This document shows positions 16,319 to 35,191 of a stretch of DNA of 43,673 nt, one piece after another; position 1 is the stretch's first letter; each line of letters starts with the position of its first letter. Both the position numbers and the translations under genes were made by a program. Origin of the DNA: Draconibacterium orientale (GTDB taxonomy: Bacteria > Bacteroidota > Bacteroidia > Bacteroidales > JAADGE01); assembly GCA_022729995.1 (NCBI GenBank), contig DZBS01000006.1, positions 10,232 through 53,904 of the forward strand. Reading direction: 5' to 3'. The notes below the pieces were generated by a model. It saw only the letters and a list, made by a program, of their open reading frames with translations, ran no database searches and was not told the DNA's origin.

Positions 16319-16945
16319 TTATTTGATTAATTGTAATCCTCCGAGAGCAGATTCGTCGTTTGGCGATAAAAGTAAAACTTTATTGAAAAGAACTTCGGCT
16401 TCTCTTTTCTTTCCCAAATTTAAATTTGTCCAAGCATACATTAGCAATCCGTCGTAGCTAAAAGGATATAAATCAACAACTTTTTTGAAATATCCGAGAG
16501 CTTTTGTATAATTTTTTTGACCGTAAAAAATTAATCCCATTCTATAATTTGCAATTGTGCTGTTTGGCGAGTTTGCAAGAATTTTTTCATATAAAGTAAT
16601 TACTTCTTCCCATTTTCCTTGAGCAGCTTTTGGGTAAATTAATCCAAATTTTGCTTCTTCCGAATACGGCATAATGTTAAGAGCTTTTTGATAATGTGCT
16701 GCAGATTCTTCAAATAATCCGGCATTATATTCGAGCCAGCCGAGTCTTAAATTAATTTCATAAGAATTATCTGCATAAACAGTTTTTATCAAATCGGCAG
16801 CTTTTTTAAATTCGCCTTTTTTTTCGAGTGCATAACTGTCGGCAAATGCTTTTTGTAATGCTTCGTTTGTTTGTGCGTAAATTTGTGTAAGCGTTAAAAA
16901 TAACAGTAAAATAATTGTGCTTAGTTTTTTTGTTAAAAGTACCAT
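16319..16945 (-). CDS. Secreted TPR protein (PqqD/ATP-grasp cluster)
   Basis: Signal peptide plus TPR repeats; start overlaps the end of the upstream gene by 13 nt. Confidence 0.8.
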   Translation of the reverse strand: MVLLTKKLSTIILLLFLTLTQIYAQTNEALQKAFADSYALEKKGEFKKAADLIKTVYADNSYEINLRLGWLEYNAGLFEESAAHYQKALNIMPYSEEAKFGLIYPKAAQGKWEEVITLYEKILANSPNSTIANYRMGLIFYGQKNYTKALGYFKKVVDLYPFSYDGLLMYAWTNLNLGKKREAEVLFNKVLLLSPNDESALGGLQLIK

Positions 16946-18249
16946 TTTATACCTCCTGTAATTGATTGGTTAATATAGTTTTGTGTATTTGAAATTCCGT
17001 AAATTTTATATTCGTTTTCTTTAATGTTATATGTATATTTAAAGAAAATATTAAATTTTTCTTTTGCTAAACTGATATTCAGTAAAGCATCGTATCTTCT
17101 AATAATCGGGTCTAAATCATTATTTGCAACCAATGAGTTATATTCGGTGAAATTATATAATCGTCCGAATGTTACCGAAGGTTCAAAATAAAAATGTTTA
17201 AGGAAATTTACAGAAACGCTTTCTTTTACAATTGCGTTAAGCGATAAATTTCCGTTTTCGAACTGATTATGGTAAATTAATGTTGAATTTATTCTTAATT
17301 TTTCGTTTCCGAAAGGCGAAATTGACAAACTTGCTTGAGGTTGCAGCTGAAACAAATTATTCAAATTTGATACCGAAACTCCTATTGAAGGACGGAAAAA
17401 AGGATATGTTTTTGATAATGAAATATCGCCTACATAAGTTCTTTCGGTGTAGTAATAATAGTATGAATTTGAAACCCTTCTTCTTCCAACCATTGTGTAT
17501 GTTGAATCTTCAGCAAAAAATGTTGATGAAATTACATGAAACGAAGTTTTAAGATTTAGTTGTTTTCCAATTAATGAACTTACTTGAAGGTAATATTCTC
17601 TTTGTTTTAATGTTTCTTCATACAAAGTAGGAATATTTTCTTGCGGAAGATCTTGTATATTGTTATGAATTACCATACTTGTAAAACCGTGAAAAACCTT
17701 TACACTTTTCCCAAAAACATGTTCGAGGCTTAAATTGTAATATGATTGTCTTAGAACAGCAACTTGCTCAATGGCATCGCTTCCGTCGGGTTCAATTACA
17801 AAATCTTCGTTAATCTCTTGTTTTGTATCGAAATAAATTGCATGAATGAAAGGTTTAGATTTTATATCAAGTTTTTTGATTAATTTATCCGAAAAAAAAG
17901 GAATTATTTTTCTTATATCATCATAATATCCTGCAAAAAGATATGAATAATACAAATATTCGTTTATTACATCGTCTCTCAAATTTTCTTTGTGAGCTTT
18001 TTCAAAATATTTTACTGCCTGAGAGTATTTTCCCAATTCGTAATATGCAATTCCCATTCTTACATGCAAATAATAAAAATCTATATTATTTTTTAACGAC
18101 AGTTTACCGGTTTCAATCAATTCTGTCCACTGTTTTTTCTCGTATTGCTCGTAAGTTTTTGCATCAATTGTAGGGTAATTTATTATTTCTTGAGCATTAA
18201 TTATTCCTGTGTATGCAAAAATAATCAGTATTAAAATAATTTTCTTCAT
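16933..18249 (-). CDS. N-terminal TPR plus C-terminal outer-membrane beta-barrel protein (YaiO-like architecture)
   Basis: Signal peptide, TPR (LHVRMGIAYYELGKYSQAVKYFEKAHKENL), alternating amphipathic strands and C-terminal GGIKWYF. Confidence 0.65.
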   Translation of the reverse strand: MKKIILILIIFAYTGIINAQEIINYPTIDAKTYEQYEKKQWTELIETGKLSLKNNIDFYYLHVRMGIAYYELGKYSQAVKYFEKAHKENLRDDVINEYLYYSYLFAGYYDDIRKIIPFFSDKLIKKLDIKSKPFIHAIYFDTKQEINEDFVIEPDGSDAIEQVAVLRQSYYNLSLEHVFGKSVKVFHGFTSMVIHNNIQDLPQENIPTLYEETLKQREYYLQVSSLIGKQLNLKTSFHVISSTFFAEDSTYTMVGRRRVSNSYYYYYTERTYVGDISLSKTYPFFRPSIGVSVSNLNNLFQLQPQASLSISPFGNEKLRINSTLIYHNQFENGNLSLNAIVKESVSVNFLKHFYFEPSVTFGRLYNFTEYNSLVANNDLDPIIRRYDALLNISLAKEKFNIFFKYTYNIKENEYKIYGISNTQNYINQSITGGIKWYF

Positions 18250-18272
18250 TTTTAAGGTTTTTAAAAATTAAT

Positions 18273-20480
18273 TTAGATTTTTGTATTTATTGTAATTTTA
18301 TTGGATTTATTGTCAATAATTTGAATAATACCCGATTTTAATATTTTAATCTCGAAATTTAACAATTTGTTTTCATTTCCAAAAATACTGTTTTTCACAG
18401 TTGTTTTTAGTATAACGTATTCCGGACTTAAATCTGCATCTTCTTCGATATAAAATATTTTAAATTCCGATTTTAAAAATAAATATACAGGAGAAATAAA
18501 ATCTTGAAAAAACATTAATATTTTATTGAAAAATAAATTAGGTCTGATAAATGAATTGAATGAAACATCTTTATAAAATGCCGATTTTACATTATAAAAT
18601 GCTATAAAGAAATTGAATAATAATGATTTTTTGTTTCCGTAAAAATTATTAAACCAAAATCCGGTTTCATCGGAATAAAAATATGCTGTTGATTTTGTTT
18701 CCGTACATTGTATAAATGTTTGGTTGTAGTAATCTTTTTCAACTTCCCAAACTGTTTCTGTCGATTTCCCCGCAATTTCGGATATAACACTAATTTTTTG
18801 TCCGGGAATAAGATGAATTGCTTCTTTAATTAGTTCGTGAGGAACTGCTTGCGATATTTTATCGTTTAATTTTGGAATTCCAAATATTTTGTATTCTGTT
18901 GTTTCGTTTTCGCTAATATAATTTGTAAGCGGATATTCTATTGTTTTTGAGCCTACAAAAGGTGATGCTTGAATTTGAAAATGCAAATGCGGGTATGGCG
19001 AATGTCCGGAGTTTCCAACTTCTGCAATTACTTGTCCTTTTTGAACATATTCGCCTGCTTTTACTCTAAACGAACCGGATTTTAAATGGCTTAGTTGCGA
19101 ATAAAGATATTCGGCGTGCATTATTACAATTGAGTTTCCCCAATTTTGAACTGTATTTATATCGCCAATTTTGTTATCTTTTATTCCGTCGTTGATATTC
19201 ATTACATAACCCGAAGCAGGAGCAATTATATTTTTGCCGTAACATAAATAATCTTCTACTTTTTCTCCGGAACTTTTAAATTGTGAATTTTCTTTATCAA
19301 CAATTATAAAATCCCAAGCTTCTTTCCAAAATCCTTTATGTGTATATTCTCCTTCGTGGGCTTGGCTGATTGTCCATTTTCCCCAAAACGGCAAATTTAA
19401 TGGAAAAAAGTTTTTGTCTTTTATTATTTGGACATAAGTTTTGTTAAGATATAAAGTTTTTTCGGGCGTGTTTTGTTTTGTAAATGTGTCTGTTAAATGT
19501 TTGTTTCCGGTAATTCTTTGTCTTAGAGCATATATAAAAAGTATTACAACAATATTAAACGGCAGCGAATAAATTGGAATTCCCCAAGGAAGAAATAGGT
19601 TTTGCAGACTTATTGTTATTATAACCGTAATCGGTAATAATATTAATGTCCAAAGATATGTTTTTGCTGAAGGAATTACAAAATATCCGCCAATTGCAAT
19701 TGAAGTTAATATGTAATTAAAACCGATAAATGTATATTCGAGTTGAGCAAAATCCGAACCTGTAATTTCATAGAAATAAAATGCCGCAAAAAATCCGGTG
19801 ATTGAAAGTGTAAATGCTATTCTGGAATAAATTAATAATCCGATTGCAATTAAAATTCCGGCAAGTAAATTATTCTGAAAAAATATTGCACCCAATGAAA
19901 GCAGATAAATTTTTAGGATTTCAAAATCTTTGATTGAATTAAACCAATCATATATTTTAACAAAAGTGCTTCCTCCCGCCGAATATAATTCGTTGTAGGT
20001 ATATATTCCGCGATGACTTAAACCTAAAGCATCAAAATGGCTTGATGCTAAAATCACAATCCAAATTCCAAAAAGAAAAGGTATGCTCAAAAAAGGCAGT
20101 GAATATTTAGATAATATTCCTTCAATATTTATTGTGATAATTAGAGTTAAAAGAGCCGCAAAAATTATCAGAATTAAAAGCACAATTCCGGGTTCAAAGT
20201 TTAATCCGGTTCCTATTCCAACCAAAAGTGCGTTGTATCCGTATAATCCTTTTTTAATTTTTTCTTTATTGAAGCCCATAGAAAAGGCCGTGAGATTACA
20301 TACTGTAACAGCAATTATTCCCGAGATTCCTGCCCAAAAATCTATAAAGCTTACTAATAAGAGAAGAATAGAAAAAAATTTATTTTCCGAAAAAAAAATT
20401 TGAGAATAGCTTCTTAATGTTGCATTGAGTGAAGCATTGATTTTTACTTTATATTTATCTAAATTCATTATAAGTTTCAT
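18273..20480 (-). CDS. Urea-transporter-like membrane domain fused to an M23 metallopeptidase-like domain
   Basis: N-terminus resembles UT family (FFSENKFFSILLLLVSFIDFWAGISGIIAV...GLYGYNALLVGIGTG); C-terminal half has M23 motifs (IIAPASGYVMNIN, YSQLSHL, SPYPHLHFQI). Confidence 0.8.
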   Translation of the reverse strand: MKLIMNLDKYKVKINASLNATLRSYSQIFFSENKFFSILLLLVSFIDFWAGISGIIAVTVCNLTAFSMGFNKEKIKKGLYGYNALLVGIGTGLNFEPGIVLLILIIFAALLTLIITINIEGILSKYSLPFLSIPFLFGIWIVILASSHFDALGLSHRGIYTYNELYSAGGSTFVKIYDWFNSIKDFEILKIYLLSLGAIFFQNNLLAGILIAIGLLIYSRIAFTLSITGFFAAFYFYEITGSDFAQLEYTFIGFNYILTSIAIGGYFVIPSAKTYLWTLILLPITVIITISLQNLFLPWGIPIYSLPFNIVVILFIYALRQRITGNKHLTDTFTKQNTPEKTLYLNKTYVQIIKDKNFFPLNLPFWGKWTISQAHEGEYTHKGFWKEAWDFIIVDKENSQFKSSGEKVEDYLCYGKNIIAPASGYVMNINDGIKDNKIGDINTVQNWGNSIVIMHAEYLYSQLSHLKSGSFRVKAGEYVQKGQVIAEVGNSGHSPYPHLHFQIQASPFVGSKTIEYPLTNYISENETTEYKIFGIPKLNDKISQAVPHELIKEAIHLIPGQKISVISEIAGKSTETVWEVEKDYYNQTFIQCTETKSTAYFYSDETGFWFNNFYGNKKSLLFNFFIAFYNVKSAFYKDVSFNSFIRPNLFFNKILMFFQDFISPVYLFLKSEFKIFYIEEDADLSPEYVILKTTVKNSIFGNENKLLNFEIKILKSGIIQIIDNKSNKITINTKI

Positions 20481-20489
20481 TAAAAATCA

Positions 20490-20521
20490 AGCAGGAAGAA
20501 CAAATTAATGTTCAACCTGCT
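20490..20521 (-). terminator. Hairpin between decarboxylase and UT-M23 gene (weak terminator or attenuator)
   Basis: AGCAGG.. GAAC / GTTC ..CCTGCT imperfect stem in the minus-strand intergenic gap; weak T tract. Confidence 0.45.
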
Positions 20522-20541
20522 ATCAAACCAAAAAAAAAGAA

Positions 20542-21888
20542 CTATGTTAAATGCGTTGGAGTTTTCTCCATTGCAGTGAGAGTCTGTCCGGTTTCATTTT
20601 CTCTTATAATGTGAGATTCGCCTTTTGTGTCTATTAAAATTATTTTTGGTCGCATTGTAATAAATTGCATCCATTGTGTCATATTATATGCTCCAACTCT
20701 TTTAATTACAACATTATCATTTTTTTGTATTAAAGGAAATTTTATTGCACTTCTTACAACATCAATGTTCATACAAAGCGGACCAAATATTGTTGTGTCT
20801 TCGGAATGTGAGCCTGTTTGTTTTGTAGGATATATTTCATGGTCGTACCAAAATGATGTAAAAAGCATATTTACTCCAATATCTATAATTGTCGAGCGTC
20901 TGCCGTCGGCCAATCTTTTATTTGCCAAAACTGTTGCAATTACATCTCCTGCATCGTCAATAAGTGCTCTTCCTGTTTCCAAAATTAATGTAGGTAAATT
21001 TTGAGTGTCGAGATTTGAATTTATTAATGCGTTTGTTATAGAATCTGCATAATCATCAAACGAAGGGCAAGTATCTTTTCCGGGTAAATATGCACCTTTC
21101 AGGGTATTATCCGATGCAAATCCTCCGCCCATATCTATATATTTTATTTTATGATTGAATTTTTTATCAACATTTATTGCCAAATCTGCAAGTTTTGATG
21201 CAGCAACACCGTAAGCTTCCGGAGCCATTATGTATGTTCCGATGTGTGTGTGTAATCCAACCAATTCGAGTTTTCCGCTAAGCATTATTCTGTTAAGTGC
21301 ATTCCATGCTTCGCCGTTTTCGTAATTGAATCCGAAACGATCCCATTTTGGATAAATCCCTGTGTCCATGTTTACGCGAATTGCAACTTTTGGTTTTTCG
21401 CTAACAGTTTCGGTTAATTTTATAATATCAAAAAGTTCGTCGAAATGGTCGATATGAATATATGAACCGTTTTTTATTGCTTTTGTTAAATCTGCTATGC
21501 TTTTGTCGGGTCCGTTGAAAATAATATTTTTTCCGTCAACTCCGTTTTCAATGGCTTTATCGTATTCAAATCCTGAAACTACTTCAGCCCAAGAACCTTC
21601 TGAATGAAATACTTTACAAACTGCATTTAAATAGTTGGTTTTATACGACCATGCAAATTGAACTTTTGGATATCTTGTTGTGAATGCTTGTTTGGCAGTA
21701 TTATATTTATCTCTTATTTTCTTTTCGGATATTACGAATAGCGGAGAGCCGTATTTGTTTGTTAAATCCGAAATTTTATTTCCTTCCAATTCTTGAATAA
21801 TGGGAATTTTATGTCCCATTCCAAACTTGTCTGTAACTCCGGCGTTTATTTTATTAATTACCGGGCGTTCGTATTTTAATTTTTCCAT
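20542..21888 (-). CDS. PLP-dependent group IV decarboxylase (LysA-like, divergent)
   Basis: PLP Lys in FAWSYKTNYL, HTHIGT, DMGGGF, ETGRAL; catalytic-Cys motif GPLCMNIDVV in place of the CESGD-type DAP decarboxylase motif. Confidence 0.85.
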   Translation of the reverse strand: MEKLKYERPVINKINAGVTDKFGMGHKIPIIQELEGNKISDLTNKYGSPLFVISEKKIRDKYNTAKQAFTTRYPKVQFAWSYKTNYLNAVCKVFHSEGSWAEVVSGFEYDKAIENGVDGKNIIFNGPDKSIADLTKAIKNGSYIHIDHFDELFDIIKLTETVSEKPKVAIRVNMDTGIYPKWDRFGFNYENGEAWNALNRIMLSGKLELVGLHTHIGTYIMAPEAYGVAASKLADLAINVDKKFNHKIKYIDMGGGFASDNTLKGAYLPGKDTCPSFDDYADSITNALINSNLDTQNLPTLILETGRALIDDAGDVIATVLANKRLADGRRSTIIDIGVNMLFTSFWYDHEIYPTKQTGSHSEDTTIFGPLCMNIDVVRSAIKFPLIQKNDNVVIKRVGAYNMTQWMQFITMRPKIILIDTKGESHIIRENETGQTLTAMEKTPTHLT

Positions 21889-22128
21889 TTTAATTTAACA
21901 ATTTAGTTTCTTTTTTTTTTTGAAATTTTCTATGTTTAGAATCTTACAAAAAATTGAATTATATTTCAAACGATTAAATTTCCGGAGAAATTCCTATTTC
22001 GTTTTTAGTTTTAACTTAACAGTTTATCAAGACATTAAGTTAATCAGTTAATCAAAAATCAAGTCTTTCGGTTATAAGTTTATCAGTCTTTAATTAAAAT
22101 ACTAATTTCTGATTAACTGATTTATTTT

Positions 22129-23172
22129 CTATAGTTCACCTGTTATCGACAGTCGTTCAAATTGCGAAATATCTCCAATCATATCCATTGAATATCGAAT
22201 AAACATTTTTCCGATATCATAGCTTGTAAATGGTTTTACTTTTTCGCCAAGTGCCAATTTTACAAGTGCTTCGGGTAAATTTTGTCCTGCACCAACAGCT
22301 AAATAAACCCAAGCCGGAATTCGCGGATTTATTTCAATTATATAATATTTATTGTCTTGTGTTTTTATTATTTCAAGTTCCATGCCGCCTTTCCATTTTG
22401 TTTTGGCAATAAGGTCTTTCGTAATTTCCATTAATTTTTTATCGTCGAGCGTTATTCCTCCCCAAGCTTTTCCTTTATCGGTAATATATTGTTTTCTCAT
22501 TGGAACTGCACCCACAATGTTACCTTCGCCGTCGCCGAGTGCAATAACATTTACTTCTGTTCCTCTGATAAATTCTTGAATTATAATGGGAACGCCCCAT
22601 TTTGCCGATATTTTATTGTAAAAACCTATTACTTGATCTTCATTATATGCCGCATAAGCATCATAAAACTTACCTTTTACAAGTATAGGATATTCAAATT
22701 TGTCGGATAATTTTTTAATTTCGTTTAAACTTGAAATTGTTTTGCTGAACGGAACGTCGAAACCATATTTTTCGCCATATTCGGGCAAAACGGCTTTATG
22801 TCTTTCTTCAAATTGAGGAATTGTCGGCAAAAATGTTGAAATTCCCATTTCTTTTAAAACTTTTTCGGCTTTCATAAAAGTGAATAATTCAGCGTCGAAG
22901 TTTGGTATTAATACGTCTATTTTTTCAATATTGTGAATATATTCGATTCTTTCCATTAATGCATCTGAACCTGTTGATGGATATGGAATTTGATATACTT
23001 TATCACAAATTCCGTCCATGTAAATTCCCGGTTCTAAGTTTTCATAAGCTAAACCTATAATTCTAACATCAAAATCTTTTGCTTCTCGCAAGCCTCTAAT
23101 AACAGGAACGCCCGGTCCGGGATTGTCTGTGTTGTTTAAACCTGTTACTGCTATATTATATTTTTGCTTCAT
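22129..23172 (-). CDS. ATP-grasp ligase (CarB-like)
   Basis: YPILVKGKFYDAYAAY, PIIIQEFIRGTEVNVIALGDGEG, GMELEIIKTQDNKYYIIEINPRIPAWVYL. Confidence 0.88.
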   Translation of the reverse strand: MKQKYNIAVTGLNNTDNPGPGVPVIRGLREAKDFDVRIIGLAYENLEPGIYMDGICDKVYQIPYPSTGSDALMERIEYIHNIEKIDVLIPNFDAELFTFMKAEKVLKEMGISTFLPTIPQFEERHKAVLPEYGEKYGFDVPFSKTISSLNEIKKLSDKFEYPILVKGKFYDAYAAYNEDQVIGFYNKISAKWGVPIIIQEFIRGTEVNVIALGDGEGNIVGAVPMRKQYITDKGKAWGGITLDDKKLMEITKDLIAKTKWKGGMELEIIKTQDNKYYIIEINPRIPAWVYLAVGAGQNLPEALVKLALGEKVKPFTSYDIGKMFIRYSMDMIGDISQFERLSITGEL

Positions 23173-23417
23173 TATTCTGCTGTTAAAACATTAAAAGTTT
23201 TTAGCATTTCCATAAAATCGTAAAAGTTGTGTTCTAAAGTAAAATTATCAATTTCGTATTTTTCAATCATGATTTCTTTAATTTCTTCTTCCGATTTTCC
23301 GGATTTTAAAAATGCTAAAATTTCTTTTCCGGTTTGGTTTAATGAAAATGAATCGCCTGTTGAAGGGTCAAACATAAATCCGCTTTCACTTATTGCTATG
23401 CTTTCTTTAATTTTCAT
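23172..23417 (-). CDS. PqqD-family protein
   Basis: 81 aa: GFMFDPSTGDSFSLNQTGKEILAFLKSGKSEEEIKEIMIEKYEID fits the PqqD pattern; overlaps the ATP-grasp gene by 1 nt. Confidence 0.85.
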   Translation of the reverse strand: MKIKESIAISESGFMFDPSTGDSFSLNQTGKEILAFLKSGKSEEEIKEIMIEKYEIDNFTLEHNFYDFMEMLKTFNVLTAE

Positions 23418-23618: not shown

Positions 23619-24209
23619 TTATTTTAAATCTTCCAAAAAATTTTTAGAACTTCTGTCGCTAATTTTATATTCTGAAACAGACATTCCCGTTTCTTTTTTA
23701 AATTGATTTGAAAGATATTGAACGCTGCTGTAATCCATCATATAAGCTATTTCGCTCAATGTAAACTCGTTATTGTCTATCAAATGTTTTACTCTTTCAA
23801 TTTTATTTAATATGATATATTTTTCAAGTGTTAACGGTTCGTTTTCGGAGAATATCTTTGAAAGGGTTCTGTAGTTTATTCCGAGTTTCTCTACAAGATA
23901 TTCGGATTTTCTAAGAATTGAATCAACATTATTCATTTCGTGAATAAGTTCTTTTATTGCAATTTTAATTTTTTCGACAAGTATTTTTTCGCTGTCTTCA
24001 ATAATTTCAAAGCCGTATTTTTCGAGCAATGTAATTATTTCTTGAAATTTGATTTTTTCTTTATCGAATTCTATATTTATGTTACCCGGAAATATTTGAT
24101 TTATAATTATTTCATTTTGAGATAATATTATTTTTATAAGCTCAACACTGCTTTTGCAAAGCATGTTTTTAATGTATATTTGTTTACTTATATTTCTAAT
24201 ATTTTCCAT
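23619..24209 (-). CDS. AraC-family regulator with degenerate HMA-like N-terminus
   Basis: C-terminal FTLSEIAYMMDYSSVQYLSNQFKKETGMSVSEYK; N-terminal IYIKNMLCKSS resembles an HMA motif with one Cys lost. Confidence 0.85.
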   Translation of the reverse strand: MENIRNISKQIYIKNMLCKSSVELIKIILSQNEIIINQIFPGNINIEFDKEKIKFQEIITLLEKYGFEIIEDSEKILVEKIKIAIKELIHEMNNVDSILRKSEYLVEKLGINYRTLSKIFSENEPLTLEKYIILNKIERVKHLIDNNEFTLSEIAYMMDYSSVQYLSNQFKKETGMSVSEYKISDRSSKNFLEDLK

Positions 24210-24280: not shown

Positions 24281-24778
24281 TTACATTTTTCTGCAATTCA
24301 TTCCGTTTCCTTTTCCGTAACCTGCGTCGTTTCCTCTGCATTGTCCGTTTCCGTGTCCTTTATTTGGTCGTGAATCGAAATAAATTTTTTGCTCGTCGGT
24401 TAATAATTTTCTAATTTCTTGTTTGTGAGCTGCAGATTTTTTTTGCATTGTTGTTCTTATCACGCCCATTTCGTCAATTGTTGCATTTATTGCGTTAATA
24501 TCTGCATTTTCTGCTGTTTGAAGTGTTTGTAATCTTGCTCTTTTTTCATTCATTTGATTTCTCAAAGGAAGCATTTCTTTCAAATGTGCAGTTCTTAATT
24601 TTTCAATTTTTGTTTGTTGTTCTGCTGTAAGGTTTGGAATATTTTGGAAATATCCTTTTCCTTGTCCTTGTCCTTGTCCCGGACCTGTTCCGTTCATTTG
24701 TTGTGCCGATAATGATGTTACCGAAATTAATGCGGCAAAAAGTGCCAAAGCCGAAATTTTAAATTTTGTTGATTTCAT
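24281..24778 (-). CDS. Spy/CpxP-like periplasmic protein with Gly/Gln-rich and Cys/His-containing tails
   Basis: Signal peptide, LTAEQQTKI and LTDEQKIYF LTxxQ motifs. Confidence 0.75.
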   Translation of the reverse strand: MKSTKFKISALALFAALISVTSLSAQQMNGTGPGQGQGQGKGYFQNIPNLTAEQQTKIEKLRTAHLKEMLPLRNQMNEKRARLQTLQTAENADINAINATIDEMGVIRTTMQKKSAAHKQEIRKLLTDEQKIYFDSRPNKGHGNGQCRGNDAGYGKGNGMNCRKM

Positions 24779-24802
24779 TTTTTCTAAATTTAATAATAAT
24801 TG

Positions 24803-25360
24803 TTATCTGTTTGTATTTATGTGTTTTCTGTTATTTGAATTGTTTCCTCTGTTCATTCTGCAGTTTACTTCTATTTCTGTGTTTTGCATGGATAAAAACA
24901 TTTCTTTCAATTTTCCTTGTTGTGTTTTATCGCAGTTTTCATACATTTCTCGCATATAGTTTGAAGAATAAATTTTCAATTTTGCGTGCATTTTTCCTAA
25001 TTCATTAGATTTATCAATAATAAATTTCTGATTTGGTTTCTCTGCAAAAGTTTCGTTAAATATTTCCGAACGTAATACAATCATACTGTCTTGAAGTTTT
25101 CTCGCATTTTCCATATACGAAAATCTAATTTCTCCAATTTCATCTTGTTGTTCGGGCGATAAATTTAGTTCTTCGTTAAAAAAACGCATCATTCCCATCG
25201 GTTGATTGTTATTTCTTATTGTGTTTCTTCTTATTTCTCTGTTATTAAGAGTAAAATAATTGTAAGCAAAAGTTCCTATTATTGTTACATTAAGTAATAA
25301 AGAAAGAAGAAGTAAATAATTTATTAGTTTCAAATTTTTCATAATTTTTTTGTTATTCAT
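24803..25360 (-). CDS. Membrane-anchored Spy/CpxP-like protein
   Basis: N-terminal TM; LNLSPEQQDEIGEIRFSYMENARKLQDSM helical pattern. Confidence 0.7.
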   Translation of the reverse strand: MNNKKIMKNLKLINYLLLLSLLLNVTIIGTFAYNYFTLNNREIRRNTIRNNNQPMGMMRFFNEELNLSPEQQDEIGEIRFSYMENARKLQDSMIVLRSEIFNETFAEKPNQKFIIDKSNELGKMHAKLKIYSSNYMREMYENCDKTQQGKLKEMFLSMQNTEIEVNCRMNRGNNSNNRKHINTNR

Positions 25361-25787
25361 TTATTAAGTTAAATTCCAAAGATTCTTGTTCCAAATCGTT
25401 AATATAAAACACTTCGCTTTCTGAACCCGAAATTTGTGTTGATGTTTTATTTGTTCCCATATTTCCGAATAAAATTCCTACACTTATTATTAATATTATA
25501 CTTGCAGCAACAGCAAAAGGCATTAGAAAATTTAATGTTTTTTGTCGGTTTGATATTTTGAAAGATTCAATATTTCTAATATTTTGCATAACAGATTCCG
25601 TAAAATTTACATCAATTTCCATTATTCGTTCCGAACTTAATATGGATAAATCGATTTTAAGTTTTTGATATAAAATATTACAATTATTGCATCTGTCTAA
25701 ATGATTTTCAATTTCTGATGATTCACTTTTTGAAAGTTCTCCGTCAATATAAAATATCAATTTATTTTGTGTATCGTTGCAGTTCAT
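25353..25787 (-). CDS. Anti-sigma factor with zinc-finger-like N-terminus
   Basis: IENHLDRCNNCNILY zf-HC2-like motif; single TM; downstream of ECF sigma gene. Confidence 0.85.
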   Translation of the reverse strand: MNCNDTQNKLIFYIDGELSKSESSEIENHLDRCNNCNILYQKLKIDLSILSSERIMEIDVNFTESVMQNIRNIESFKISNRQKTLNFLMPFAVAASIILIISVGILFGNMGTNKTSTQISGSESEVFYINDLEQESLEFNLINE

Positions 25788-25840
25788 TTTTCTAAATTTT
25801 ATTATTTGACACTGTTTTTTTTAAAACTTGCGGTTTATTT

Positions 25841-26392
25841 TTAATTTTTTTTATAATAACCCGATAATTCTTTTTGTAAATTTGTTTTTGCCCTATGTAT
25901 CAGCGATTCTACCGATGAAATTGTTAAATTCATTGTTTCGGCAATTTCTTTGTAAGAAATTTCTTCAAACTTACTAAGAACAAATGCAGTTCGTTGATTT
26001 TCGGCTAAATTGTCTATTGATTTATGAATTAATTCCATTTTTTGGCTCATTTCAAATTCTTTTTCTATTGCAGAATTTTCATCGTCGCTAATTTTTAATT
26101 CATTGTCGGAAATATCCTCGGTTAATTTTTTTTTAATTTCTCTCAAATAATTAAGAGATTTATTTACCGATATTCTGTAAATCCAAGTTGAGAATTTTGA
26201 ATCGCCTCTAAATTTCGAGAGCGATTTCCAAGCTTCAATAAAAACTTCTTGGGCTACATCTTTTGCCGAATCTATATCGTGTAAAAATCCGTTACAAATA
26301 TTAATTACTTCTTTTTGGTATGAAATCACCAATTCCGAAAATAATTCTTTTTCGCCTTCGAGTATTCTTTTTATCAATTTTGATTCATCCAT
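25841..26392 (-). CDS. ECF-type RNA polymerase sigma factor
   Basis: Sigma-70 region 2 (AKDVAQEVFIEAWKSLSKFRGDSKFSTWIYRI) and region 4 (LSKFEEISYKEIAETMNLTISSVESLIHRAKTNLQ). Start moved to internal Met; ORF track extends to 26461. Confidence 0.93.
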   Translation of the reverse strand: MDESKLIKRILEGEKELFSELVISYQKEVINICNGFLHDIDSAKDVAQEVFIEAWKSLSKFRGDSKFSTWIYRISVNKSLNYLREIKKKLTEDISDNELKISDDENSAIEKEFEMSQKMELIHKSIDNLAENQRTAFVLSKFEEISYKEIAETMNLTISSVESLIHRAKTNLQKELSGYYKKN

Positions 26393-26575
26393 CAATTTAA
26401 ATATTTTACACTTTGACTCAAAAAAATTGAAAACTTGCGAAATTTTTTGAATTATTTTCAAAAAAAAATTAAAATTCCAATAAATATCGAACTTTTATCA
26501 AAAGATTTTTTTTTTAAATCAGTAGAAACGAATAATTTTTTATTTTTTTTGAAATTTTATTTTTAAAAAGACAAA

Positions 26576-27154: not shown

Positions 27155-28696
27155 ATGATTAAAATAGGAGTTAAAAGGCTTGAAAAAGCTGATTTCGAGA
27201 AAATAGTCTTTCAAAAAGAAAAAATCGAAATAGATGAAATTGCAAGAGAAAAAGTTAAAACGAATTTTGAATTTTTAGAACAATTCTCAAAAAACAAAAT
27301 AATATACGGAATTAATACCGGTTTCGGGCCTATGGCTCAATATCGTGTAGACGATAATCAACAAATTGAATTACAATATAATTTAATTAGAAGTCATTCT
27401 TCGGGTTCAGGAAAATTGCTTTCGAAAAAATGCACTAAAGCTGCAATGCTTGCTCGTTTGAATACTCTTTTACAAGCATATTCCGGCGTTAATAATTCCG
27501 TTACCGATTTATTGGCTCAGTTTATTAACAATGATATTTATCCGAAAATATTTCGTCACGGCGGAGTGGGAGCAAGCGGCGATTTAGTTCAGCTTTCGCA
27601 TTTAGCTCTTGCACTTATAGGCGAAGGAGAAGTAAATTATAAAGGTGAGTTTAGAAATACTGCCGTCGTTTTAAAAGAACTAAATTTGAAACCTATTGAT
27701 GTGAAAATTCGTGAAGGTTTAGGACTTATAAACGGAACTTCTGTTATGACAGGAATTAGCATTCTTAATACTTTATACACACACAAACTCTTAAGTTGGT
27801 CAATTATTTCTTCGGTTTTAATTAACGAAATTGTAAAATCTTACGACGACCATTATTCAAAAGAATTAAACTCTGTTAAACATCATAAAGGACAACAAGT
27901 TATTGCTGAATCAATGCAAAATATTTTGTATTCTTCTAAATTGATAAAAAAACGACACGATGTTCTTTACAACGGAAAAGAAAATAATACAAAAGTTTTT
28001 GAAGATAAAGTTCAAGAATATTATTCTTTAAGATGTGTTCCGCAAATTCTCGGACCAATTTTAGATACTTTAATTTATTCCGAAAATATTTTGGAAGACG
28101 AAGTAAATTCTGTTAACGATAATCCGATTATCGATCATAAAAATAATAATGTTTTTCACGGAGGAAATTTTCACGGCGATTATGTTTCTTTGGAAGCCGA
28201 TAAACTTAAAATTGCCGTTACAAAACTTTCAATGCTTGCCGAAAGACAAATTAATTTTTTAATGAACGACAAATTAAATAAAATACTTCCGCCGTTTGTA
28301 AATCTTGGAACTTTAGGACTAAATCTGGGAATGCAAGGCGTTCAATTCACTGCTGTTTCAACAGTTGCCGAAAATCAAACACTTTCAAACCCGATGTATG
28401 TTCACAGTATTCCGAATAATAACGACAATCAGGATATTGTAAGCATGGGAACAAATGCAGCTCTTTTAACACAAAAAGTGATTTTTAATTCTTTTGAAGT
28501 TTTAGCTATTGAATTGCTTTCATTGGTTCAAGCTGTTGATTATTTGGGATATCAAGATAATTTATCAGATTTATCTAAAAAAATATATTCCGAAATTAGA
28601 GCTATAGTTCCGCGTTTTGAAAAAGATTCATCTAAATATAATGAATTGGAAAATATTAAAAATTACTTAATGGATTCAAACATTAATCTTATTTAA
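27155..28696 (+). CDS. Tyrosine ammonia-lyase (flexirubin starter-unit enzyme)
   Basis: MIO motif ASG (27572-27580) in HGGVGASGDLVQLSHLAL; LQYNLIRSHSSGSG, KVQEYYSLRCVPQILGP and HSIPNNNDNQDIVSMGTN match my recollection of Flavobacterium johnsoniae TAL. Confidence 0.88.
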   Translation: MIKIGVKRLEKADFEKIVFQKEKIEIDEIAREKVKTNFEFLEQFSKNKIIYGINTGFGPMAQYRVDDNQQIELQYNLIRSHSSGSGKLLSKKCTKAAMLARLNTLLQAYSGVNNSVTDLLAQFINNDIYPKIFRHGGVGASGDLVQLSHLALALIGEGEVNYKGEFRNTAVVLKELNLKPIDVKIREGLGLINGTSVMTGISILNTLYTHKLLSWSIISSVLINEIVKSYDDHYSKELNSVKHHKGQQVIAESMQNILYSSKLIKKRHDVLYNGKENNTKVFEDKVQEYYSLRCVPQILGPILDTLIYSENILEDEVNSVNDNPIIDHKNNNVFHGGNFHGDYVSLEADKLKIAVTKLSMLAERQINFLMNDKLNKILPPFVNLGTLGLNLGMQGVQFTAVSTVAENQTLSNPMYVHSIPNNNDNQDIVSMGTNAALLTQKVIFNSFEVLAIELLSLVQAVDYLGYQDNLSDLSKKIYSEIRAIVPRFEKDSSKYNELENIKNYLMDSNINLI

Positions 28697-28712
28697 AAAT
28701 TTTATCGGAATA

Positions 28713-29438
28713 ATGAAAAACGCCATTGTTACAGGTGCATCACGAGGTATTGGAAAAGCCGTTGCAATTCAACTTGCAAAGGAAAATTTTCATGTCATTA
28801 TAAATTATGTTTCAAACGAAATTGAAGCACAAAAAACTCTCGATGAAATTATTGGTTTCGACGGAAGTGCCGAACTTTTGAAATTTGATGTGTCCGATAA
28901 AACCCAAACCGAAAAAGCAATTGAAAATTGGACCAAAAATAATCCGGATAAATATATCAGCGTTTTAGTTAACAATGCAGGAATCCGAAAAGACGGACTT
29001 ATTTTATGGATGTCGGACGAAGATTGGTTTGATGTTATTAATACAAATCTTAACAGTTTTTTCTATTTAACAAGAATTATTGTTAAAGAAATGCTTGTAA
29101 ATAAATTCGGCAGAATAATTAATATTGTTTCGCTTTCGGGATTAAAAGGAATGCCCGGACAAACCAATTATTCGGCTGCAAAAGCCGGAATTATCGGAGC
29201 AACAAAATCGCTTGCTCAAGAAACAGCAAGAAAAGGAGTTACCGTAAATGCAGTTGCTCCCGGATTTATTAAAACCGATATGACAGCCGAACTCGACGAA
29301 AAAGAATTAAAAAAAATTATTCCGGCTCAACGATTCGGAAAACCCGAAGAAGTTGCACATTTAGTTTCATTTTTAGCCTCAGAAAATTCGGCATATATTA
29401 CAGGAGAAACTATTTCTATTAACGGAGGTATTTATTAA
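28713..29438 (+). CDS. 3-oxoacyl-ACP reductase (FabG-like)
   Basis: TGASRGIGKAVA, NNAG, YSAAK, APGFIKTDM SDR motifs. Confidence 0.93.
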   Translation: MKNAIVTGASRGIGKAVAIQLAKENFHVIINYVSNEIEAQKTLDEIIGFDGSAELLKFDVSDKTQTEKAIENWTKNNPDKYISVLVNNAGIRKDGLILWMSDEDWFDVINTNLNSFFYLTRIIVKEMLVNKFGRIINIVSLSGLKGMPGQTNYSAAKAGIIGATKSLAQETARKGVTVNAVAPGFIKTDMTAELDEKELKKIIPAQRFGKPEEVAHLVSFLASENSAYITGETISINGGIY

Positions 29439-29460
29439 AAAAAATAAAGGAAAATAAAAT

Positions 29461-30675
29461 ATGAATAGAGTTGTTATTACCGGAATGGGAATATATTCGG
29501 TTTTAGGAACAAACTTAAATACAGTAGCCGATTCGCTTTTTAAAGGCAAATCCGGAATTGGTATTGATGAAAACCGTGCAAATTTTGGGTTTAGATCAAA
29601 ACTTACCGGAATTATTGAGAAACCGGATATTAAAAATCTTCTTTCGCGAAGAATGCGAATTGGAATGCCCGAACAAGCCGAATATGCTTATTTGGCTACA
29701 ATTGAAGCTTTTAAAAATGCTAAAGTTGACCAAGATTATTTAGATAAAAATATTGTTGGGATTTTATACGGAAACGACAGTTCGGCTTCGGCCGTTATTG
29801 AAGGCTGGGAAATTATGAAAGAGAAAAAAGATACTTCTCTAATTGGCTCAGGCTCAATTTTTAAGTCGATGAATTCTACAGTAACAATGAATTTATCGGT
29901 AATTTTTAAACTGAAAGGAATAAATTTTACAATTAGCGGAGCTTGCGCAAGCGGTTCTCATGCTATAGGAATTGCATATTTGCTCATTCAACAAGGTTTG
30001 CAAGATATGATTGTTGTTGGCGGAGCTCAAGAAATTAATGCAGAATCAATGGGAAGTTTCGACGGACTTTCAGCTTTTTCTGTAAGAGAAAACGAACCTC
30101 AAAAAGCATCAAGACCATTCGACCGAGACCGTGACGGATTAATTCCCGGCGGAGGCGCTGCAACATTAATTCTTGAAAGTTATGAAAATGCTGTAAAACG
30201 CGGAGCAAATATTCTTGCAGAAGTTGTTGGTTACGGATTTTCTTCAAACGGCGAGCACATTTCAAACCCAAATGTTGAAGGACCGACTCGTTCATTAGAA
30301 TTAGCGCTTAAAAATGCAAATTTAAAATCTTCGGATATTGATTATGTCAATGCTCATGCAACTTCTACTCTTGTTGGAGATGATAATGAAGCTCAATCAC
30401 TTTTTAATGTTTTTGGAAGTAAAACTCCCGTGAGTTCTACAAAATCTATGACCGGACACGAAATGTGGATGGGCGGCGCAAGCGAAATTATTTATTCAAT
30501 TTTAATGGCTCAAAATAATTTTGTAGCACCAAATATCAATTTTGAAAATCCCGATGAATTTTCTTCAAAAATTAATATTATTCCAATAACCAAAGAGATG
30601 AAAATGAAAACTTTTCTTTCAAATTCCTTTGGTTTTGGCGGAACAAATTCATCGTTAATTGTGAAAATGCTTTAA
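29461..30675 (+). CDS. Beta-ketoacyl-ACP synthase (FabF-like)
   Basis: ISGACASGSHAIG active-site Cys, NAHATST, KSMTGHEMWMGGA, NSFGFGGTNSSL. Confidence 0.93.
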   Translation: MNRVVITGMGIYSVLGTNLNTVADSLFKGKSGIGIDENRANFGFRSKLTGIIEKPDIKNLLSRRMRIGMPEQAEYAYLATIEAFKNAKVDQDYLDKNIVGILYGNDSSASAVIEGWEIMKEKKDTSLIGSGSIFKSMNSTVTMNLSVIFKLKGINFTISGACASGSHAIGIAYLLIQQGLQDMIVVGGAQEINAESMGSFDGLSAFSVRENEPQKASRPFDRDRDGLIPGGGAATLILESYENAVKRGANILAEVVGYGFSSNGEHISNPNVEGPTRSLELALKNANLKSSDIDYVNAHATSTLVGDDNEAQSLFNVFGSKTPVSSTKSMTGHEMWMGGASEIIYSILMAQNNFVAPNINFENPDEFSSKINIIPITKEMKMKTFLSNSFGFGGTNSSLIVKML

Positions 30676-30691
30676 AAAAATTAAATATATA

Positions 30692-30940
30692 ATGGAAAAA
30701 CAAGTAATAATTGAAAAAATAAATAAATTCTTAATTGAAGAAATTGAAATTGAAGAATCGGATATTTCTCCCGAAGCTTCTCTTTCAAAAGATTTAGGAA
30801 TAGACAGCCTCGATTTTGTCGATATTGTGGTGATTGTTGAAAAAACTTTCGGCTTCAAAATTAAAGGTGAAGATATGAAAGACATTAAAACTCTTGAAAT
30901 GTTTTATGATTATGTTGAGCAAAAAGTAAATCAAAATTAG
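30692..30940 (+). CDS. Acyl carrier protein
   Basis: DLGIDSLDFVDIVV phosphopantetheine Ser motif. Confidence 0.93.
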   Translation: MEKQVIIEKINKFLIEEIEIEESDISPEASLSKDLGIDSLDFVDIVVIVEKTFGFKIKGEDMKDIKTLEMFYDYVEQKVNQN

Positions 30941-30948
30941 AGTTTACA

Positions 30949-31842
30949 ATGCAACAAAACTGGGAAGGAAGAACAAGAGGCGGACTGTCGGGATATAAAA
31001 TTTTTATATTTATTCTTAAAAAAGCCGGTATTAAATCGGCATATTTACTTTTAAGATTTATAGCTCTTTGGTTTGCAATTTTTTCTTTTAAAGGTGCTAA
31101 AGCTCAATACGTTTTATTCAGAAAAAGATTAAATTATTCTGCTTTAAAATCAATATTTTCAGTTTACAAAAATCATTATATTTTCGGACAAGTGTTATTA
31201 GATAAAATCGCTATTCTTTCCGGAATGCGAGATAAATTTACTTACGAACATACAAATGAAGATGTAATTAAGAATATGCTAATTAACAAAACCGGCGGTA
31301 TTCTTATAAATGCTCACATTGGAAGTTGGGAAATGGCAGGTCAACTTTTGGAAATGCACGGCGATAAAATTTATGTTGTGATGCTTGATGCCGAACATGA
31401 AAAAATTAAAAATTATGTTTCGGAAGTTACGGGCGGAAATAAAATTGAAATTATTCCCATTAAAAATGACGGTTCGCACATTATAAAAATTGATGAGGTT
31501 TTGAAAGATAAAGGAATTATTGCAATGCACGGCGACAGATTTATGGACAGTGCAAATTTTGAAGAATTTGATTTCTTGGGGAAAAAAGCAAAATTTCCTA
31601 CAGGTCCGTTTCATTTAGCTGCAAAATATTCTGTTCCGTTCACTTTTGCAACTGCTTTCAAAGAAAAAAAACTGCACTATCATTTTTTTGCAGCCAAAGC
31701 TCAGTATGTAAAATATCCCGGGAATATTGCCGAAAGAAAAATTGAAATTAAAAAAAGTATGCAAAATTATGTTTCTCAACTCGAAGAAACTATAAAAAAA
31801 TATCCGATACAATGGTTTAATTATTACAACTTTTGGAATTAA
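30949..31842 (+). CDS. LpxL/HtrB-like lysophospholipid acyltransferase
   Basis: GILINAHIGSWEMAGQLL and MHGDRFMDSANFEEFDFLGKKAKFPTGPFHLA motifs. Confidence 0.88.
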   Translation: MQQNWEGRTRGGLSGYKIFIFILKKAGIKSAYLLLRFIALWFAIFSFKGAKAQYVLFRKRLNYSALKSIFSVYKNHYIFGQVLLDKIAILSGMRDKFTYEHTNEDVIKNMLINKTGGILINAHIGSWEMAGQLLEMHGDKIYVVMLDAEHEKIKNYVSEVTGGNKIEIIPIKNDGSHIIKIDEVLKDKGIIAMHGDRFMDSANFEEFDFLGKKAKFPTGPFHLAAKYSVPFTFATAFKEKKLHYHFFAAKAQYVKYPGNIAERKIEIKKSMQNYVSQLEETIKKYPIQWFNYYNFWN

Positions 31843-31862
31843 TAATATTGAAAACAAAAACT

Positions 31863-32933
31863 ATGTCGAGAACTTACGGAAAAGATGAAAAATCTGCTTT
31901 ACAAGCAAAAACCGATGCTCAAAAAATTGCATTTGCGCCAATTATGTTTCAAGCAGCAAAAGCTTTGAGAGATTTAGGAATTTTAAATTTTATAAAACAA
32001 AAAAGAAAAGGAGTTACCGTTTCCGAAATTTCTTCAAATTTAAATATTTCGGAATATGGTATTACAGTGCTTTTGGAAGCCGGAATTAGTTTAGAAATGG
32101 TGAGAGTTGAAAATGACAAATGGTTTATTACAAAAACCGGTTTTTTCGTTCTTTCAGATGAGCTTACACGCGCCAACATGGATTTTACGCACGACGTAAA
32201 CTATAAAGCATTTTTTCATTTGCAAGAAGCTATTACCGAAGGAAAACCAACAGGATTAAATAAAGAATTCGGCAGTTGGAAAACTGTTTACGAAGCTTTG
32301 GCTGAAATGCCTGAGAAATTTCGTAAAAGTTGGTTCGATTTTGATCATTATTATTCAAGCGATTCTTTTCCGCATGTGATGCCCGTTATTTTTAAAAATA
32401 ATCCGAAGAAAATTATGGATGTTGGCGGAAATACAGGAAAATTTGCCATTAAATGCGCCGAATATTCGCCCGAAATTAATGTTACAATTCTTGATTTACC
32501 CGGACAACTTGCCGACGCACAAAAAAATATAGACCAAAATAATTTTACCGACAGAATAAAAGGTCATCCGATTAATCTTTTGGATTTTTCGCAACAATAT
32601 CCTAAAAATCACGATATTATTTGGATGAGTCAATTTTTGGATTGCTTTTCGGAAAGCGAAATTTTGAATTTACTTACAAATGCAAAAAATGCAATGGACA
32701 GTAATTCAGAACTTTTCATTATGGAAACTTTCTGGGATTTACAACGTTTTGAAGCTTCAACATATAGTTTGCATGCTACATCGCTTTATTTCACTTGTGT
32801 TGCAAACGGAAATAGCCGAATGTATCATTCCGACGATATGCGCCAATTAGTCGAAAAAGCAGGATTAAAAGTTGTTGAAGTATTTGAAAATATTGGTGTT
32901 AGTCACACAATTTTTAGATGTAAAAAAGCTTAA
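31863..32933 (+). CDS. SAM-dependent O-methyltransferase-like protein
   Basis: N-terminal winged-helix dimerisation region; KIMDVGGNTGKFAIKCAEYSPEINVTILDLPGQ. ORF track start at 31833 overlaps the upstream CDS; ATG at 31863 preferred. Confidence 0.88.
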   Translation: MSRTYGKDEKSALQAKTDAQKIAFAPIMFQAAKALRDLGILNFIKQKRKGVTVSEISSNLNISEYGITVLLEAGISLEMVRVENDKWFITKTGFFVLSDELTRANMDFTHDVNYKAFFHLQEAITEGKPTGLNKEFGSWKTVYEALAEMPEKFRKSWFDFDHYYSSDSFPHVMPVIFKNNPKKIMDVGGNTGKFAIKCAEYSPEINVTILDLPGQLADAQKNIDQNNFTDRIKGHPINLLDFSQQYPKNHDIIWMSQFLDCFSESEILNLLTNAKNAMDSNSELFIMETFWDLQRFEASTYSLHATSLYFTCVANGNSRMYHSDDMRQLVEKAGLKVVEVFENIGVSHTIFRCKKA

Positions 32934-32939
32934 TTTATA

Positions 32940-33383
32940 ATGAAGAAAATTCCGTTTAAAAATATTACAAATTTGTCGGTTGAAAAGGAAATTGAAATTC
33001 GTTTCAGCGAAGTAGATTCTATGGGAATTGCTTGGCACGGAAGCTATGTGAAATATTTTGAAGACGGAAGAGAAACTTTCGGAAAAAAATACGGAATTTC
33101 TTATCTCGATGTTTATTCTAAAAATTATATGACTCCGCTTGTAAAATTGGATATCGATTACAAAAAGTTCATTAAATACGGCGATTCGGCAATTATTAAA
33201 ACAACTTTAGTTGATTCCGATGCAGCAAAAATTATTTTTATTTATGAAGTGAAAAGAAAATCCGACAATGAAATTATTGCGGAAGGTTATTCTATTCAGG
33301 TTTTTATGAATAGAAATATGGAACTTGAACTTTTAGCACCAAAGTTTTTTGTTGATTGGAAAATAAAATATTTGAACTTATAA
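32940..33383 (+). CDS. 4HBT-type acyl thioesterase
   Basis: EIEIRFSEVDSMGIAWHGSYVKYFEDGRETFGKKYGISYLD. Confidence 0.9.
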   Translation: MKKIPFKNITNLSVEKEIEIRFSEVDSMGIAWHGSYVKYFEDGRETFGKKYGISYLDVYSKNYMTPLVKLDIDYKKFIKYGDSAIIKTTLVDSDAAKIIFIYEVKRKSDNEIIAEGYSIQVFMNRNMELELLAPKFFVDWKIKYLNL

Positions 33384-33397
33384 TCTATTAATATTAA

Positions 33398-35191
33398 ATG
33401 GTTTATATTTCATCACATAATATAATTTCTTCTTTAGGATTTTCAACTAATCAAAACATTGAAAATTTCAGAAATTCTGTTTCCGGAGTTTTATTCCATA
33501 ATGACAAAAAATATTCAAAAGAAGATGTATTTTTTTCGCTTATAAATCACGACGAATTAAATAAAAAATTTGAAGAAATATCTGATAATAAAGATTATAC
33601 ACTTTACGAAAAGCTTTTAATATTATCGGTTTCAGATGCTTTAAGAAATTCAAAAATTAATCCTTCGCCAAAAGATACTTTAATTTTAATTTCAACAACA
33701 AAAGGAAATATCGACCTTTTAAATAATGAAAATCCTGAAAATCCGAAATTAAAATTATACGACACAGCAAAAGTTTTAAAAGATTTTTTTAAAACAGAAA
33801 ATTTACCGCAAGTTATTTCAAATGCTTGTATTTCAGGAACTTTAGCTTTGGCTGTTGCTAAAAGATTTATAGATTCAGGTTTATATAAAAATATTATTGT
33901 TACCGGAGCCGATATAATTTCGGAGTTCACTCTCTCGGGATTTTTGTCTTTCAAAGCAATAGGAACTTCTGTTTGCAAACCTTTTGACAAAAACCGCGAC
34001 GGAATAAATTTGGGTGAAGGAGCAGGCACAATAATTCTTACTTCGGAAAAACAATTTGCTGCCGAGCCTCATATTTTCCTATCCGGAGCTTCGTGCACAA
34101 ACGATGCAAATCACATTTCCGGACCGTCAAGAACAGGCAACGAATTGGCTTTGGCAATTTCAAATTCATTGATTGAAGCAAATATTGACTCTTCAAAAGT
34201 TCAATATATTTCTGCACACGGAACGGCAACTTCTTATAACGACGAAATGGAAGCAAAAGCTTTTTCAACAGCCGGAATTTTAGATGCAAATATTACAAGT
34301 GTAAAAGCTTATATTGGTCATACACTTGGTGCAGCCGGAATTATTGAAACTGTTTTGGGAATTTCTGCTATCGAAAATCAAGAAATTTATCCTACAATAG
34401 GTTTCGAAGAAATTGGAGTTCCTGCCAAAATAAATGTGAATAATATATTTAGAAAAACGAAAATTGAAAATGTAGTTAAAACAGCTTCCGGATTTGGCGG
34501 TTGCAATGCTGCTTTGGTTTTGTCGTCAAATGTGCCTGAACATAAAAAACAAATCGAAAATATAAATCTTGATATAACGGAAAGCGTTGTAATTAAAGAA
34601 GATTTTTATATCAATTCAAACAAAAAAACAGTTATTAATTCTGATGCTTTTTCTTTCGGTAAATTCACAAAAGCCATTTATACACAGCAAAATATGAATT
34701 ATCCAAAATTTTATAAAATGGATAATTTAAGCAAATTGGCATTTATTGCTTCTGAATTATTATTGAAAAATAAAAATATTATAGAAAAATATAAACCCGA
34801 AGAAATTTCTATTATTATTTCAAACAGAAGTTCTTCGCTGAATACCGATTTTAAATATCAAGAGTCAATTTCCGATAGAGAAAATTATTTTCCGAGTCCG
34901 TCGGTTTTTGTATATACGCTCGCAAACGTTATGATTGGCGAAGTTTGTATAAGGCACAATATTAAAGGTGAAAATACTGTTTTTATTCATGAAAATTTCG
35001 ATGTTGATTTTCTAAAAAATTATATAGAAATTTTATTCAAAACAAATAAAACAAAACTTGCAATTACAGGAAGAATTGAATATGACTTTCCTTCAGAAAA
35101 ACATGAAGCGGTTTTATATTTAATTGAAAATAAAGAAAATGCAACATTAAATTTTAATAAAATAAATATAAACAAAATATATAATACTTAA
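33398..35191 (+). CDS. Beta-ketoacyl synthase with about 210-aa C-terminal degenerate KS-like extension
   Basis: SNACISGTLALA, SAHGTATSYNDEMEAKAF, YIGHTLGAAG, GFGGCNAAL; extension PSPSVFVYTLANVMIGEVCIRHNIKGENTVF resembles a KS N-terminal half. Confidence 0.85.
   Translation: MVYISSHNIISSLGFSTNQNIENFRNSVSGVLFHNDKKYSKEDVFFSLINHDELNKKFEEISDNKDYTLYEKLLILSVSDALRNSKINPSPKDTLILISTTKGNIDLLNNENPENPKLKLYDTAKVLKDFFKTENLPQVISNACISGTLALAVAKRFIDSGLYKNIIVTGADIISEFTLSGFLSFKAIGTSVCKPFDKNRDGINLGEGAGTIILTSEKQFAAEPHIFLSGASCTNDANHISGPSRTGNELALAISNSLIEANIDSSKVQYISAHGTATSYNDEMEAKAFSTAGILDANITSVKAYIGHTLGAAGIIETVLGISAIENQEIYPTIGFEEIGVPAKINVNNIFRKTKIENVVKTASGFGGCNAALVLSSNVPEHKKQIENINLDITESVVIKEDFYINSNKKTVINSDAFSFGKFTKAIYTQQNMNYPKFYKMDNLSKLAFIASELLLKNKNIIEKYKPEEISIIISNRSSSLNTDFKYQESISDRENYFPSPSVFVYTLANVMIGEVCIRHNIKGENTVFIHENFDVDFLKNYIEILFKTNKTKLAITGRIEYDFPSEKHEAVLYLIENKENATLNFNKININKIYNT

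Follow-up and report, generated by a model that had tools for sequence, protein, structure and literature searches.

Several discrete PqqD-fold proteins, including TbiB1, TfuB1/FusB1, PbaB1 and LppB, act as recognition elements for ribosomally synthesized and post-translationally modified peptides (RiPPs) and read a ligand of the form [Y/F/W]xxPx[I/L/V]. The discrete RiPP recognition elements (RREs) of lasso peptides bind [Y/W]xxPx[L/V/I/F/A] (PMC13381572, PMC12710340), and in LppB, D70 hydrogen-bonds the leader tyrosine, N33 holds the proline kink and F74 divides the pocket (PMC13381572). We analysed a 43,673-nucleotide stretch of the Draconibacterium orientale genome (contig DZBS01000006.1 of assembly GCA_022729995.1, positions 10,232 to 53,904; hereafter the window, whose own numbering is used throughout), in which six minus-strand genes at 16319–23417 encode a PqqD-family protein, an ATP-grasp ligase, a pyridoxal phosphate (PLP)-dependent decarboxylase, a fusion of a urea transporter (UT) domain with an M23 peptidase domain, a probable outer-membrane protein (OMP) and a secreted tetratricopeptide repeat (TPR) protein. 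The lasso and LPP RREs bind a short precursor peptide, whereas the ligand here appears to be the N-terminus of an enzyme of 450 residues, the decarboxylase.

Co-evolution of PqqD with a tag on the decarboxylase

The PqqD protein (81 residues, 23172–23417) matches PF05402 at 35.6 bits, against a cut-off of 23.4, and its nearest solved chain is the lasso RRE TbiB1, to which it aligns without gaps and which has an Asp at the position of residue 64. Its N27, N64 and F68 are spaced as N33, D70 and F74 of LppB (64−27 = 37 = 70−33; 68−64 = 4 = 74−70), giving it the asparagine, the phenylalanine and the tyrosine-reading position of the lasso and LPP RREs at equal spacing. Among distinct loci, N27 was conserved in 166 of 166 and F68 in 160 of 166.

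A partner bearing the leader motif is encoded nearby, as seen in the sequence both from the motif itself and from co-evolution. Alanine-racemase-fold decarboxylases begin near residue 34 of the window protein (448 residues, 20542–21888; assigned by Pfam and the PDB match 7kh2), and the segment that precedes this point is MEKLKYERPVINKINAGVTDKFG. Within it, residues 6–23 (YERPVINKINAGVTDKFG, 21820–21873) form a leader-like tag, the putative PqqD ligand. The pattern [Y/F]xxPx[I/L/V]x9K was present at the decarboxylase N-terminus with fixed spacing in 213 of 213 loci, and the full consensus was [Y/F]ExPxIx5Gx3K[F/Y]G, after which comes a variable linker of about 10 residues, several of which vary freely. 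The proline and lysine of the tag were invariant in this set and its glutamate and final glycine were kept in 209 loci; the residue after that glycine showed no conservation. The first half of the tag is the motif by which RREs recognise lasso and LPP leaders. The invariant lysine, K21 (21826–21828), is conserved although it is not required for the RRE motif, and it is possibly a covalent attachment point or a second binding site.

A profile of the tag, run against 18 genomes, gave one significant match in each, always the operon decarboxylase (one genome had two copies, near contig ends). In these genomes the profile found the tag on no other protein, and in none of the 18 did it turn up a short precursor made of leader and core, although tagless peptides were not exhaustively searched. 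The NCBIfam leader models did not match the bare tag. The original prediction, made from the letters of the window alone, had set these genes apart from classical PQQ and RiPP clusters, which agrees with these results. It had seen no obvious precursor peptide, and the tag profile gave no free one in the 18 genomes, but it missed the leader-like PqqD substrate that is fused to the decarboxylase N-terminus and co-evolves with PqqD.

This co-evolution is concentrated at one position of PqqD. With a Tyr tag (105 loci), residue 64 was D in 73, N in 31 and H in 1 (D/N in 104 of 105); with a Phe tag (61 loci), it was Y in 42, S in 12, A in 4 and F, H or V in one each (Y/S/A in 58 of 61). The corrected mutual information with the tag was 0.90 bits for residue 64, and no other column came close (at best 0.22 in the rest of PqqD and 0.35 in ATP-grasp). 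The tag/residue-64 pair had z = 13.2 among the tag–PqqD pairs; couplings between PqqD and the body of the decarboxylase were at background level. Mapping on the ATP-grasp tree gave nine switches of the tag and ten of the residue-64 class, nine of them coincident, compared with at most four coincidences in 20,000 trials of random placement. Some of the switch branches are poorly supported, but a number of them are clades with good support or consist of one locus. Taken together, the co-variation and the coincident switches are strong evidence for a direct contact between PqqD and the tag, predicted to be of the type seen in solved RRE–leader pairs. The assignment of PqqD as a true peptide-binding RRE, with the decarboxylase tag as its probable ligand, is strongly supported by sequence. 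The gene set would work in the manner of an RRE–leader pair, but judged by the presence of a precursor peptide it would not count as a RiPP cluster. It also differs from the lasso and LPP systems in its co-evolved Phe-reading branch and in having no cyclase, no leader peptidase of a known type and no core peptide.

The decarboxylase and the ligase

The best PDB match of the decarboxylase was 7kh2, an N-citrylornithine decarboxylase (203.8 bits, versus 128.1 for the next match). The catalytic residues K83 (the PLP lysine), C372, H215 and Y401 are invariant, and T344, Y348 and M373 lie in the specificity helix and the Cys loop, as in FigC. The closest characterised enzymes, FslC/FigC, SbnH, AcsE and BtrK, have in common with it the Thr and Tyr of the specificity helix and the Met after the catalytic Cys. 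By its scores against the family models, the enzyme is neither LysA (TIGR01048, 207.6 bits versus a cut-off of 297.9) nor FslC (NF041039, 243.1 bits versus a cut-off of 500). The positions of FigC H357 and R387, the predicted citrate contacts, are occupied by I375 and Q405. The FslC/FigC relatives are partnered by siderophore synthetases of the NRPS-independent (NIS) type or by carrier proteins; a further difference is the N-terminal tag of the operon decarboxylase. The FigC clade acts on substrates that are already conjugated; the substrate of the operon enzyme is likewise predicted to be conjugated, though not to citrate, and rather neutral.

The distant relationship of the decarboxylase to LysA and ornithine decarboxylase (ODC) would fit an ordinary operon for lysine, diaminopimelate or polyamine metabolism, in which PqqD is a bystander. 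However, T344 at the position of the ODC aspartate and the diaminopimelate decarboxylase arginine, and M373 in place of the acidic residue beside the catalytic Cys, are both invariant replacements, the lysA score falls well short of its cut-off, and the co-evolution of PqqD with the tag excludes a bystander role, so that we regard such an operon as scarcely credible. The polyamine-like product that had been proposed as one outcome of the pathway also loses its footing, since neither the acidic specificity residue typical of decarboxylases for basic amino acids nor the arginine typical of those for diaminopimelate is kept.

The ATP-grasp ligase (347 residues, 22129–23172) is translationally coupled to PqqD. 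Its AlphaFold model had a mean predicted local distance difference test score (pLDDT) of 91.6, and the nearest folds were 2pn1, biotin carboxylase, the amino-acid ligase RizA and PylC, with carbamoyl-phosphate-synthase-like folds among the matches. E267, E280 and N282 are invariant, and the metal and ATP residues are kept. It is the sole gene of the operon that bears on a RiPP-modifying enzyme class, and it reached no named equivalog cut-off, scoring far below all of those in NCBIfam, including that of the graspetide ligase MvdD. By its modelled fold, it is a member of the amide-ligase group that contains PylC and RizA. The butirosin enzymes BtrJ/BtrK and the methanofuran enzymes MfnA/MfnD similarly place a PLP decarboxylase beside an ATP-grasp amide ligase, MfnA being of a different PLP fold, but they have neither an RRE nor a tag nor the UT-M23, OMP and TPR module. 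The earlier idea of a small amide or amine pathway with an envelope module alongside suits this pair of enzymes.

The ligase also bears on the role of K21. PylC, which belongs to the same fold group, acylates the side-chain amine of lysine, and the tag could be a covalent carrier: PqqD would present the tag, the ATP-grasp enzyme would ligate an amino acid onto K21, the decarboxylase would act on the conjugate held by its own tag, and the product would be released, possibly by the M23 domain, by a logic resembling that of the pearlins or LysW. The constraint on the tag lysine is tighter than RRE binding alone demands, and the operon encodes an intact peptidase, both as expected of a carrier. 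On the other hand, we know of no decarboxylase that works on a tag of its own, only a short linker follows the tag, and the invariant lysine could merely contact the ATP-grasp enzyme or PqqD. We consider covalent carriage unlikely.

Spread of the operon and its envelope module

The six genes are a strongly conserved, unnamed operon of Bacteroidota, far beyond what chance would produce. A decarboxylase-based scan of GTDB species genomes gave at least 570 confirmed relatives, and 80 loci were kept; 16 remote loci were drawn from a phylum-wide search (ATP-grasp 40–68% identical). The operon core was found in 104 of 244 good genomes of the order to which the window belongs and in 35 of 390 of the phylum, both counted by the ATP-grasp gene, and in 52 of 246 of the class, counted by the decarboxylase. 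The genes for PqqD, ATP-grasp, decarboxylase, UT-M23, OMP and TPR lie in the same order on one strand in most of the 80 loci with long enough contigs, and this order is kept down to about 40% identity. All 16 remote loci retain the first four genes and 14 retain the TPR gene; the OMP gene keeps its position in 54 loci, at 20–45% identity, and the TPR gene is the last of the operon in 60. The isolates represented include Prolixibacter, Thermaurantimonas, Lunatibacter, Mariniradius, Rhodonellum, Yeosuana, Ancylomarina, Aquiflexum and Cognataquiflexum. Since the core is present across the order, class and phylum, with the same arrangement in remote loci, the objection that these genes might co-occur in close relatives only, which the original prediction had raised against itself, fails. 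The literature searches returned no description of the gene set, which leaves its status as undescribed intact as far as the literature covered goes; with subscription journals mostly outside that coverage, this absence is weak evidence.

All six open reading frames (ORFs) of the window were found as predicted, with the PqqD and ATP-grasp ORFs having 1 nucleotide in common and the OMP and TPR ORFs 13. Across loci, the median gap was 3 nucleotides for PqqD/ATP-grasp and −13 for both UT-M23/OMP and OMP/TPR, whereas the ATP-grasp/decarboxylase gap was 240 nucleotides in the window versus a median of 30 elsewhere. In one remote locus about 1.9 kb separate the PqqD and ATP-grasp genes; we noticed no comparably wide break of this pair elsewhere. 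An apparent ATP-grasp–decarboxylase fusion (locus L264, 388–2895, a frame of 835–837 residues) proved artefactual, created by masking (N) at a scaffold gap. When all neighbouring ORFs in 76 loci were clustered, no constant gene emerged besides the six. Phage origin was rejected, as PHROGs gave only generic ATP-grasp and M23 matches, and among the plasmid matches listed there were only remote ATP-grasps of less than 30% identity. Rfam and tRNA scans of the window gave no matches.

The UT-M23 fusion (735 residues, 18273–20480) comprises a UT domain (1–320), an M23 domain (about 365–535) and a C-terminal beta-rich domain. The UT domain scored 226 bits in Pfam, and the AlphaFold model (pLDDT 88.4) matched UT-B/dvUT and LytM domains in Foldseek, with a TM-score, normalised by target, of about 0.8 to UT-B and dvUT. 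In common with these transporters, it has the fold, the Phe slots, the Leu ladder and the pore-mouth Gln, Q27; unlike them, it is fused to the M23 and beta-rich domains and has changed filter residues. Of the filter residues in dvUT, which coordinate urea, E187 is replaced by A198 (43/44), T130 by S132 (44/44) and T294 by S/A305, and the canonical set is not kept. Because these residues are changed across the operon family, urea specificity should not be assumed, and the changes suggest a fit to some other substrate.

The zinc and catalytic residues of the M23 domain, in the pattern HxnD, H, HxH (H381, D390, H465, H498 and H500), are kept in 44 of 44 sequences. Going by the positive charges of the loops (positive-inside pattern) and the UT fold, this domain seems to face the cytoplasm, which would be unusual for the family. 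On that placement it would act on something in the cytoplasm, possibly the decarboxylase tag; should the placement be wrong, it would work in the periplasm, alongside the TPR and outer-membrane proteins. A cytoplasmic peptidase would allow the tag to be a true leader, which M23 would cut near its ...KFG end on presentation by PqqD, so that the decarboxylase is activated or released. The invariant zinc ligands and the apparently cytoplasmic C-terminus would agree with such cleavage, as would the glycine cleavage of some M23 enzymes (the domain had lysostaphin-like matches), but the position after the final glycine is variable, the leader peptidases of RRE systems belong to other families and M23 enzymes normally work outside the cytoplasm. 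We regard leader cleavage as a long shot.

The OMP (438 residues, 16933–18249) has a signal peptide, one clear TPR (TPR_1) and a C-terminal aromatic residue (...KWYF), and is likely to form an outer-membrane barrel, as judged from these features. The last gene encodes a secreted TPR protein (208 residues, 16319–16945; TPR matches). Pfam agreed with the predicted domain names (PqqD, ATP-grasp, Orn/DAP/Arg decarboxylase, UT with Peptidase_M23, and TPR), the weakest being the barrel, which is likely rather than shown and matched no Pfam barrel family. The UT-M23, OMP and TPR proteins together form a conserved envelope module of putative function.

An AraC-type regulator (23619–24209, minus strand; HTH_18) with a degenerate heavy-metal-associated N-terminal domain adjoins the operon, just upstream, in 27 of 76 loci, and is a candidate regulator in that subset of lineages. 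This domain has NMLCKSS in the window and CxCC in many relatives, and may link the pathway to metals. The genes at 24281–26461 on the minus strand, directly upstream, encode an extracytoplasmic function (ECF) sigma factor and a zf-HC2 anti-sigma factor, together with an unassigned small protein and a periplasmic protein of the LTXXQ/metal-resistance type, and make up a module for envelope or metal stress. On the plus strand, 27155–35191 encodes an aromatic amino acid lyase, a ketoreductase, ketosynthases, an acyltransferase, an O-methyltransferase and a thioesterase, resembling an aryl-polyene or flexirubin-type pigment cluster; an aromatic amino acid lyase gene is also near the operon in four related loci.

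A proposed pathway and its meaning

The best explanation of the whole, to which we give about an even chance, is a cytoplasmic decarboxylase–ligase complex held by PqqD and served by the envelope module. PqqD would grip the decarboxylase tag and, being translationally coupled to the ATP-grasp enzyme, would hold the decarboxylase next to the ligase. The ligase would conjugate an amino acid and the conjugate would then be decarboxylated, as in FslA/FslC and BtrJ/BtrK. The reverse order, with decarboxylation first as in MfnA/MfnD, is the alternative; ligation first is favoured because of the FslC-like pocket of the decarboxylase. The product would be a small neutral amide or amine, and the UT-M23, OMP and TPR proteins would move or process it, or a precursor, across the envelope.

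Three points weigh against this explanation. The PqqD–ATP-grasp couplings were at background, giving no direct sign of contact; one would hardly expect a urea transporter of the channel type to serve a conjugate that exceeds urea in size; and the probable cytoplasmic position of the M23 domain is ill-suited to a simple role in envelope processing. The first of these leaves room for PqqD to act only on the decarboxylase, as a chaperone or inhibitor with no bridge to the ligase, in keeping with support for the tag–PqqD contact but not for the PqqD–ATP-grasp contact. We consider this regulatory or stabilising role quite unlikely, however: in nearly all loci it is the ATP-grasp gene, and not that of the decarboxylase, to which the PqqD gene is coupled, and conservation of the tag extends past the RRE motif into its second half (Gx3KFG), suggestive of another binding partner.

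Whichever of the two arrangements holds, decarboxylase–ligase assembly or a covalent carrier at the tag lysine, we think it probable that this RRE has departed from RiPP biosynthesis and is now a specific docking adaptor that reads an enzyme-fused tag, and that the pathway it serves, undescribed and widespread in Bacteroidota, has an envelope module of its own. RREs serve to mine genomes for peptide natural products; with an enzyme as the apparent partner of this one, orphan PqqD proteins may in some cases point to enzyme complexes rather than RiPPs. The naturally co-evolved pairs, with Asp/Asn facing a Tyr tag and Tyr/Ser a Phe tag, could be used to study or engineer docking. Within one order of Bacteroidota, this undescribed pathway is indicated in about four of every ten genomes sampled.

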